Positions 13,137 to 15,903 of a stretch of DNA of 64,000 nucleotides are shown here, one piece after another. The notes under the pieces were generated by a model that worked only from the letters and a program-made list of their open reading frames with translations, did no database searches and was not told where the DNA came from. The stretch is taken from the NCBI RefSeq assembly GCF_003144095.1, contig NZ_NSKH01000018.1, forward strand, positions 155,716 through 219,715. The letters are read 5' to 3'. The position numbers were made by a program, and so were the translations under genes. This DNA comes from Streptomyces sp. ICBB 8177. GTDB lineage: Bacteria > Actinomycetota > Actinomycetes > Streptomycetales > Streptomycetaceae. How positions within the stretch are numbered: position 1 is the stretch's first letter; each line of letters opens with the position of its first letter.

Positions 13137-13454
13137 ATGGCGCAGCGCGTGGTGGTCACCCTCTCCGACGACATCGACGGCGGCGAGGCCGCGGAAACGG
13201 TTTCGTTCGGCCTCGACGGTAAGGCGTACGAGATCGACCTCTCCGCCGCCAATGCGGACAAGTTGCGCAATGCGCTGACGCCTTACCTGGAGGCCGGCCG
13301 CCGCCGCAGTCGCTCCGGCAAGACCTACCAGCGCACCTCCGTCGCGCCCGACCCCGCGGCGGTCCGCGCCTGGGCCCGGTCCAACGGCATGGAGGTCCCG
13401 CCGCGCGGGCGCATCCCCAAGCGGGTCTACGAGGCGTTCGACGAGGCGAGCTGA
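13137..13454 (+). CDS. lsrL: Lsr2-family nucleoid-associated protein (LsrL type)
   Basis: Lsr2 proteins bridge AT-rich DNA and silence foreign genes in actinobacteria. This 105-residue copy has the N-terminal dimerisation region (QRVVVTLSDDIDGGEAAETV, SFGLDGKAYEIDLS) and a C-terminal DNA-binding segment ending with PPRGRIPKRVYEAF, whose RGR inserts in the minor groove. Streptomyces usually carries two paralogues; the one beside the pur genes is LsrL, so the paralogue call rests on position. The ATG has an AAAGGA site. A compound terminator and four 11-bp repeats follow. Confidence 0.92.
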   Translation: MAQRVVVTLSDDIDGGEAAETVSFGLDGKAYEIDLSAANADKLRNALTPYLEAGRRRSRSGKTYQRTSVAPDPAAVRAWARSNGMEVPPRGRIPKRVYEAFDEAS

Positions 13455-13596: not shown

Positions 13597-13628
13597 TTGG
13601 ACAGCGGCCCCGGGTGATCCGCTAGAGT
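13597..13628 (+). promoter_or_regulatory. Probable promoter of the tRNA-Gly genes
   Basis: TTGGAC and TAGAGT lie about 48 nt before the first tRNA, but the 20-nt spacer is long. A second TAGAGT at about 13771-13776 precedes the second tRNA. Confidence 0.4.
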
Positions 13629-13675: not shown

Positions 13676-13747
13676 GCGGGTGTAGCTCAGTAGCAGAGCG
13701 CCCCTTTTCCAAAGGGGAGGCGCAGTGTGCAATTCCTGTCACCCGCT
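13676..13747 (+). tRNA. tRNA-Gly (UCC) with aberrant D- and T-loops
   Basis: The acceptor stem GCGGGTG/CACCCGC, the D stem GCTC/GAGC and the anticodon stem CCCCT/AGGGG are perfect, and loop TTTCCAA gives anticodon UCC. Two core features are missing. The D-loop AGTAGCA has no GG pair. The T-loop reads GTGCAATT instead of GTTCRANN, with poor T-stem pairing in the canonical register (better as GCAGT/CCTGT with one mismatch). CCA is not encoded. Loss of the G18-Psi55 contact on both sides suggests a tRNA excluded from translation rather than random decay; see findings. A promoter-like TTGGAC...TAGAGT lies at 13597-13628. Confidence 0.85.
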
Positions 13748-13815: not shown

Positions 13816-13888
13816 GCGGACGTAGCTCAGTTGGTAGAGCGCAACCTTGCCAAGGTTGAGGTCGCGAGTTCGAGCCTCGTCGTCCGCT
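13816..13888 (+). tRNA. tRNA-Gly (GCC), copy 1
   Basis: A canonical 73-nt tRNA: acceptor GCGGACG/CGTCCGC, D-loop with GG (AGTTGGTA), anticodon stem CAACC/GGTTG with loop TTGCCAA (anticodon GCC) and T-loop TTCGAGC. CCA is not encoded. It lies 68 bp after the odd tRNA-Gly and is followed by a strong terminator. Confidence 0.97.
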
Positions 13889-13894
13889 CAAGGG

Positions 13895-13988: not shown

Positions 13989-14140
13989 ACGTTCTGGTCC
14001 TGCGGGCGTTCCGGCCCGGCAGGCGTTCCGGCCCGGCGGACGTTCCGGCCCGGCGGACGATTCGATCCGGCGGGCGTTCCGGCCCGGCGGACGTTCTGGC
14101 CTGGCGGACGTTCTGGCCCGGCGGACGATTCGATCCGGGG
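13989..14140 (+). repeat. Nine tandem 17-bp degenerate repeats
   Basis: The unit is close to ACGTTCCGGCCCGGCGG. Copies start at 13989, 14006, 14023, 14040, 14057, 14074, 14091, 14108 and 14125 (the last is 16 bp). Units 5 and 9 share a variant (ACGATTCGATCCG), suggesting block duplication. The period is not a multiple of three, which argues against coding. Confidence 0.85.
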
Positions 14141-14340
14141 ACGTTTACGTTCTGACGGGCGCTTGATCGGATGACGTTTGGCTGGCCTTCGTCGGGGCTG
14201 TGAAGGGCGGGCGGCTGGGCGTATACCGGGGCGCGAGAGCAGCGCAGCAAGCAGGACGGCGGTTGCTTGCGGTCGTTCGCGACCTCCGAGGGGTCAACTC
14301 CCCCTACGAAGCGGCCTGTTGGGGGGTTACGGGTTCGGGT
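14141..14340. other. Gene-free stretch between tandem repeats and inverted repeat
   Basis: No gene, RNA or regulatory signal recognised. Short open frames here have no ribosome site or family resemblance. It may be debris of the same deletion that broke the neighbouring ABC locus. Confidence 0.4.
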
Positions 14341-14783: not shown

Positions 14784-14797
14784 ATGACAAATGTCAT
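14784..14797. promoter_or_regulatory. Candidate operator of the broken ABC/two-component locus
   Basis: ATGACA-AA-TGTCAT is a perfect inverted repeat centred about 64 bp before the ABC start; another GATGACA follows at about 14805. Such sites are often seen before ABC-exporter genes paired with DesR/NarL-type regulators in streptomycetes. The cognate regulator here is truncated. Confidence 0.45.
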
Positions 14798-14854
14798 CCG
14801 CATCGATGACACACCGCACCCCCCGCAGCCCCAAGCCGGCGGGACGCTGGACAC

Positions 14855-15250
14855 ATGGACGACGTGATCGAGGTCTCGGGGCTGCGGCGGCGGTACGGGG
14901 CCGGCGGGGGCGGCGGGCACGAGGCGGTGCGGGGGGTTTCCTTCGGCGTTCGGCGCGGGGAGGTGTTCGCGTTGCTGGGGACCAACGGGGCGGGCAAGAC
15001 CTCCACCGCGGAAGTGCTGGAGGGGCTCGCGCCTCCCACCGCGGGGCGGGTGCGGGTGCTGGGCCACGATCCGTACCGCGAACGCGCCGCCGTACGGCCG
15101 CGGATCGGCGTGATGCTCCAGGAGGGCGGCTTCCCGGCGGAGTTGACCGTCGCCGAGACCGCCGCGATGTGGGCGGGGTGCGTGAGCCGGGCGCGGCCGT
15201 CAGGGAGGCACTGGAACTGTTCGGGTTGAGGGGGCGGGGCGCGGCGCGGG
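14855..15250 (+). pseudogene. Truncated ABC-transporter ATPase fragment
   Basis: The fragment encodes the first ~130 residues of a drug-export-type ABC ATPase: VIEVSGLRRRYG, the Walker A loop LLGTNGAGKTST, and the Q-loop region IGVMLQEGGFPAELTVAETA. A one-base frameshift near 15195 moves the continuation (VREALELFGL) into another frame; the original frame stops at 15229. The ABC signature, Walker B and the whole second half are absent, so it cannot hydrolyse ATP. The sequence runs straight into a response-regulator fragment at about 15250. Confidence 0.85.
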
Positions 15251-15723
15251 CGCACTGCCCGGACGTCGCCGTGCTCGACCTGGAGATGCCGGGCGGCGAC
15301 GGTGTGACGATCGCCACTTCCCTGCGGGCCGAACTGCCCGGCTGCCGGGTCATGATCGTCACCGGTCACGGGCGCCCCGGGCACCTCAAGCGGGCGCTGG
15401 CCGCCGGGGTGCGGGCGTTCGTCCCCAAGACGGTCTCCGCCCAGCGGCTCGCCGAGATCATCCGCACCGTGCACGCCGGAGGCCGTTACGTGGACCCGGA
15501 GTTGGCGGCCGACGCGATCAGCGCCGGGGAGTCGCCGCTGACCGCGCGGGAGGCGCAGGTGCTGCGGCTGGCCGCCGACGGCGCGCCGGTCGCGGAGATC
15601 GCCGAGCGGGCCGCGCTGTCGCCCGGAACGGTCCGCAACTACCTGTCGTCGGCCGCCGCGAAGCTCGGCGCCGGCAACCGTCACGCGGCCGCGCGCATCG
15701 CACGCCGCAGAGGTTGGCTATGA
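15250..15723 (+). pseudogene. Response regulator fragment (DesR/NarL type) lacking its N-terminus
   Basis: The fragment starts inside the receiver domain at HCPDVAVLDLEMPGGDG, keeping the phospho-acceptor Asp but lacking the first ~45 residues with the acidic pocket. It continues through VMIVTGHGRPG and FVPKTVSAQRLAEIIRTV to an intact LuxR-type DNA-binding domain (LTAREAQVLRLAADG, LSPGTVRNYLSSAAAKLG). It is preceded by the ABC fragment, so permease, kinase and regulator N-terminus were lost in one deletion. An in-frame fusion is read from about 15190 to the stop at 15723, but no proper start precedes it. Confidence 0.85.
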
Positions 15724-15742: not shown

Positions 15743-15815
15743 GCGGACGTAGCTCAGTTGGTAGAGCGCAACCTTGCCAAGGTTGAGGTCGCGAGTTCGA
15801 GCCTCGTCGTCCGCT
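15743..15815 (+). tRNA. tRNA-Gly (GCC), copy 2
   Basis: Identical over all 73 nt to the copy at 13816-13888. It starts 20 nt after the response-regulator remnant; TATGAT at 15718-15723, inside the remnant's last codons, can serve as its -10 box. Confidence 0.97.
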
Positions 15816-15903
15816 CTGGGAACGCAAGGCCCGGTCGGCTCCCGCCGCCGGGCCTTCGTCGTACGCGCGCCCGCCGACGGCCTCGGCGCACAAGATCAAC
15901 CCG

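Follow-up and report, generated by a model that had tools for sequence, protein, structure and literature searches.

What is a glycine tRNA for when its D-loop, T-stem and T-loop all depart from those of the tRNA-Gly genes that read the same codons? The question is raised by an odd tRNA-Gly(UCC) gene in the window, the whole 64,000-nucleotide stretch of Streptomyces sp. ICBB 8177 DNA that was analysed, where it is flanked upstream by lsr2 and downstream by an ordinary tRNA-Gly(GCC) gene. A first-pass annotation had interpreted the product as excluded from translation and possibly dedicated to cell-wall glycine bridges, and this interpretation is partly supported by the analysis presented here.

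Anatomy of the gene and its locus

The position of the gene, its UCC anticodon and its perfect acceptor (GCGGGTG/CACCCGC), D (GCTC/GAGC) and anticodon (CCCCT/AGGGG) stems, all described in that annotation, were borne out. The features of the locus are:

13137..13454, + strand: lsr2 (Pfam Lsr2, 7.4e-29), conserved upstream neighbour of the odd tRNA
13597..13628, + strand: promoter-like TTGGAC ... TAGAGT upstream of the odd tRNA, read by eye
13676..13747, + strand: odd tRNA-Gly(UCC), 72 nt, no encoded CCA; Rfam RF00005 54.1 bits, R1 model 105 bits
13689..13695, + strand: D-loop AGTAGCA, with A in place of G18 and G19 retained
13706..13712, + strand: anticodon loop TTTCCAA; 32–38 able to pair, U-A here and C-G in others
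13722..13727, + strand: T-stem 5′ strand GCAGTG, with an extra bulged U at 13726 (from the Rfam model alignment)
13728..13734, + strand: T-loop TGCAATT, position 55 being G
13816..13889, + strand: ordinary tRNA-Gly(GCC) (ARAGORN; Rfam 70.2 bits)
15743..15816, + strand: second ordinary tRNA-Gly(GCC) (ARAGORN and Rfam), identical to the first

The D-loop had been said to lack its GG pair. It does read AGUAGCA, but the substitution, by A, is confined to G18: sister sequences read AGUGGCA, and G19 is present in 109/109 homologues. The T-loop carries GTGC in place of GTTC, as described (G53-U54-G55-C56). Of the claim that the contact between the two loops is lost, the alteration of 18–55 stands, but the partners G19 and C56 are unchanged in all 109 homologues, so that one tertiary contact is altered and not both. 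Two further oddities lie beyond the earlier description: the T-stem (GCAG-T-G versus CCTGT) has a six-base 5′ strand that leaves one U bulged, and positions 32 and 38 could form a Watson–Crick pair.

The gene combines a cloverleaf containing compensatory pairs with a score above the gathering cut-off: in a 4-kb search with the Rfam tRNA model RF00005, it reached 54.1 bits (E 4.7e-10) against a cut-off of 29. The R1 model scored it at 105 bits, versus 59–68 bits for canonical tRNA-Gly. ARAGORN called the odd gene neither in the window nor in the genome, and ARAGORN-based annotation would therefore miss it. Energy-only folding gave no cloverleaf for the odd tRNA of the window, nor for the canonical tRNAs tried, and was not used.

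Elements similar to TTGGAC ... TAGAGT were seen by eye upstream of the odd tRNA in relatives too; a sigma-70 consensus scan found no site at 13597..13628. Degenerate direct repeats of ~17 bases, GTTCCGGCCCGGCGGAC-like, were noted by eye at 14000–14150. Between both tRNA-Gly(GCC) genes, at 14791–15723, the N-terminal part of an ABC-transporter ATPase and the C-terminal part of a LuxR-type response regulator lie in different frames, as might result from internal deletion of a transporter/two-component cassette. In some Kitasatospora loci, ABC genes likewise lie 3′ of the paired tRNA-Gly genes. Searches of phage and plasmid collections gave no match to the odd tRNA, and a mobile-element or phage tRNA was rejected on that ground.

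Conservation and covariation

The alignment comprised 109 homologues of the odd tRNA, representing 40 distinct sequences. Across the 109 homologues, 99.6% of pair cells were standard and eight helix pairs had changed on both sides, with compensatory changes seen in the acceptor, D and anticodon stems. Every homologue (109/109) has six bases in the 5′ strand of the T-stem, with the bulge; at locus L119 the bulge is shifted by one position (ACA-U-GG) and still present. Positions 18 and 55 were A and G in 104 homologues and G and U in five (g2 and g5 genomes), and were never mixed (n = 109).

Positions 32 and 38 were U-A in 72 of the 109 homologues and C-G in 36, with one gap, corresponding to 20 U-A and 19 C-G distinct sequences; the pair is Watson–Crick wherever both bases are present. 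The covariation score was reached by 0/500 shuffles and 32–38 was paired in 100% versus 75% in shuffles; kinship alone can beat shuffles, yet U-A and C-G both recur across different genera. Covariation at 32 and 38 is of the Watson–Crick type and extends the anticodon stem to six base pairs. Among the 53 tRNAs of this genome, 32–38 is C-A in 30 and C32-G38 in one, and the canonical UCC genes have C32-A38.

Besides positions 26, 32 and 38, variability is highest in the anticodon stem; the acceptor and T-stem hardly vary, as though the functional surface lay on the acceptor/T side. Among the 40 distinct sequences, A51-U63 is found in 40, G49-U65 in 37 and A49-U65 in three. The UCC anticodon and bases 33–37 are invariant, as are G1-C72, C2-G71, U73, C35 and C36, the determinants of glycine identity.

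Distribution and FemX

Conservation across related genomes, which the first-pass annotation had proposed to check, was found: 320/395 Streptomycetaceae genomes carry the odd tRNA. BLAST of the 395 family genomes gave 348 matches, of which 30, all from genus g15 and none better than about 6e-6, were set aside as too weak; when one of these genomes (G015) was re-examined by covariance model, its best match was the canonical gene. The total comprises 318 genomes matching at E 2e-12 or better and two g5 genomes found by covariance model. Besides g15 and g12, the genomes identified as lacking a match were G001 and G137 (71% complete); a few more make up the count. In G001, which is of the same genus, the absence is probably an assembly gap, because only one of three tRNA-Gly(GCC) genes was found there either.

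In a class-wide covariance search, model matches above 84 bits were confined to Streptomycetaceae. Matches of 72–75 bits outside the family were rejected as odd tRNAs, those read (L131–L140) being ordinary tRNA-Gly. Similarly, a GTGC pattern search over the class found no convincing tRNA outside Streptomycetaceae; pattern matches in G406 and G428, outside the family, were one common sequence that is not tRNA-like.

Tandem arrays of two to four odd tRNA copies were present in 11 loci among those read (L046, L224, L044, L048, L052, L225, L232, L043, L217, L092 and L093), where L046 and L224 belong to one genome, as do L052 and L232. The copies lie ~41–47 bases apart in most arrays and 86 apart in L092. 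A homologue at L218:301-371 (G081) is 71 nt long with one anticodon-arm base missing, and is perhaps a decaying copy.

The streptomycete wall has one glycine bridge, for which FemX is presumably the glycyl transferase. The genome encodes two FemAB proteins: FemX (372 aa, L081, Pfam FemAB 1.3e-47), whose gene precedes one resembling alanine racemase, and L082. The odd tRNA and femX are about 200 kb apart. FemX-like proteins were found in 28/28 family genomes examined and, in a class sample, in 167/395 genomes, including 40/40 with the odd tRNA. FemX without the odd tRNA occurs in about 127 genomes of other families, and also in Kitasatospora (g15) and its sister genus g12. At the syntenic site in g15 and g12, two tRNA-Gly(GCC) genes come immediately after lsr2, with no odd gene in between, and 23 named loci had no odd gene. 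The FemX tree groups g15 with g12 (support 96/87), and the absence in both is compatible with a single loss. We guess that Embleya and Yinghuangia correspond to g5 and g2, and Peterkaempfera to g12; a published phylogeny places S. scabrisporus (now Embleya) on an early branch outside the Streptomyces–Kitasatospora clade (PMC6113628).

The odd tRNA thus goes with FemX. Because FemX persists without it in g15, g12 and other families, FemX does not need the odd tRNA, and strict dependence is ruled out.

Proposed role and known systems

The genome has canonical tRNA-Gly genes for UCC and CCC and three for GCC, and 199/200 family genomes were found to have canonical UCC; the expectation that another tRNA must read GGA/GGG was therefore confirmed. 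As these ordinary genes coexist with it, the odd tRNA-Gly is not needed for decoding, which makes a non-translational glycine donor its likely identity. The T-stem bulge and the 32–38 pair further suggest exclusion from translation. FemX, being present in every odd-tRNA genome checked, is the best candidate partner, and it is plausible that the odd tRNA is dedicated to cell-wall glycine bridges. It is proposed, with moderate confidence, that the odd tRNA is charged by GlyRS, is kept out of translation and most likely feeds FemX.

In this proposal, the fixed G1-C72, C2-G71, U73, C35 and C36 would allow the ordinary glycyl-tRNA synthetase to charge the odd tRNA. EF-Tu contacts the T-stem and acceptor, and the bulged U and A51-U63 sit where it grips aminoacyl-tRNA. 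A51-U63 ranks among the weak EF-Tu pairs (PMC4052509). The altered 18–55 contact would change the elbow between D-loop and T-loop, and the 32–38 pair would lengthen the anticodon stem. Together, the bulge, the altered elbow and the longer stem should lower ribosomal use, probably with exclusion from EF-Tu, and spare glycine charging. The spared Gly-tRNA could then pass to FemX, which would add the single glycine to LL-diaminopimelate of lipid II; streptomycete walls contain LL-DAP (PMC7601586). The two to four tandem copies in some streptomycetes would fit the dose demand of a bulk supplier. Against this explanation, the odd tRNA is unnecessary for FemX, it is not beside femX, and 37/40 sequences retain G49-U65, a strong EF-Tu pair. 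The invariance of UCC and bases 33–37 would also be explicable by decoding, though recognition by GlyRS could suffice.

A non-translational donor may serve an acceptor other than FemX, such as a Fem paralogue, a tRNA-dependent natural-product ligase or another transferase found mainly in Streptomycetaceae. This is unlikely, but it would account for FemX persisting in Kitasatospora and other families without the odd tRNA; L082 is at hand as a second FemAB protein, and Gly-tRNA-dependent Fem-like ligases exist in streptomycetes, for example, Orf11 of BD-12 (PMC12945691). In eight genomes with the odd tRNA (G003, G004, G006, G008, G011, G013, G014 and G016), by contrast, FemX is the sole FemX-like match at E 1e-30. 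Furthermore, natural-product ligases are strain-specific, whereas the odd tRNA is family-wide. Because FemX persists where the odd tRNA was lost, a limited chance is also given to an acceptor that is not only FemX, in which case the bulge and long anticodon stem would withdraw the tRNA from the ribosome, family-wide, for a glycine pathway of another kind.

A translational tRNA-Gly(UCC) that functions slowly, as a minor decoder or reserve, is a more doubtful reading. The invariance of UCC and bases 33–37, the retention of G19 and C56 and the intact glycine identity agree with it. It is hard to reconcile with a canonical UCC gene in 199/200 genomes, with a bulge that is conserved and not repaired, with covariation of 32–38 and with joint change at 18 and 55.

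Regulation, by a tRNA that is sensed uncharged or cut into fragments controlling other RNAs, is very improbable. By its title, a reference listed in PMC7583486 concerns a staphylococcal non-proteogenic tRNA-Gly that also acts on a glyS T-box, but this genome has one T-box match only, at a sub-threshold 42 bits (L266, G000:C11:1452613-1452726), on which ground T-box regulation was set aside, and invariant glycine identity bases would be needless in an uncharged RNA. A decayed pseudogene or chance cloverleaf, which the missing ARAGORN call might suggest, is ruled out by family-wide conservation and compensatory changes.

The canonical Streptomycetaceae tRNA-Gly(UCC) matches the odd tRNA in anticodon, in acceptor identity bases and in overall length, but has GG in the D-loop, a GTTCGA T-loop, an unbulged T-stem and C32-A38. 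Dedicated non-translational tRNAs are described from very few bacteria, and the open-access full-text literature searched (subscription papers lying outside it) reports no such tRNA for Streptomyces. Kitasatospora, which has lost the gene and whose wall differs across the mycelium in having LL- or meso-diaminopimelate (PMC7601586), provides a comparison made by nature. As the gene can be deleted in a tractable laboratory host, diversion of aminoacyl-tRNA from translation becomes directly testable.

In staphylococci, charged tRNA-Gly(UCC) species with D- and T-loop variations are poorly bound by EF-Tu and are used for pentaglycine bridges (PMC8007984, PMC4052509). In common with these FemXAB isoacceptors, the odd tRNA is a UCC tRNA-Gly with a low tRNA-model score, D- and T-loop changes, the weak EF-Tu pair A51-U63 and several gene copies in some genomes, and it coexists with a Fem transferase and with ordinary tRNA-Gly genes that cover GGA/GGG. 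The first-pass annotation had seen the same two loop changes in both: GUGC does occur in the T-loop here (104/109), its staphylococcal counterpart being given by that annotation, since the reviews go no further than a variable loop, but replacement of G18-G19 by UU or CU does not (AG in 104 and GG in five of 109). Of the weak EF-Tu pairs of the staphylococcal type, A51-U63 and A49-U65, the first is in 40/40 distinct sequences here and the second in 3/40. The odd tRNA loses G18 alone and mostly keeps G49-U65; its T-stem bulged U and 32–38 Watson–Crick pair may be further differences. In Fem transferases, donor recognition is directed at the acceptor arm of the tRNA (PMC4052509); for Weissella viridescens FemX, G2-C71 underlies a preference for Ala-tRNA, whereas the odd tRNA has retained C2-G71, the glycine pair. 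The staphylococcal and Streptomycetaceae tRNAs are likely convergent. If withdrawn from translation, the odd tRNA would be a second, apparently independent way of dividing glycine between the ribosome and the wall, with escape from EF-Tu by another route, the bulge, in the main antibiotic producers. Judged by its sequence features, the odd tRNA is a Streptomycetaceae counterpart of the staphylococcal cell-wall tRNA-Gly, differing in detail.
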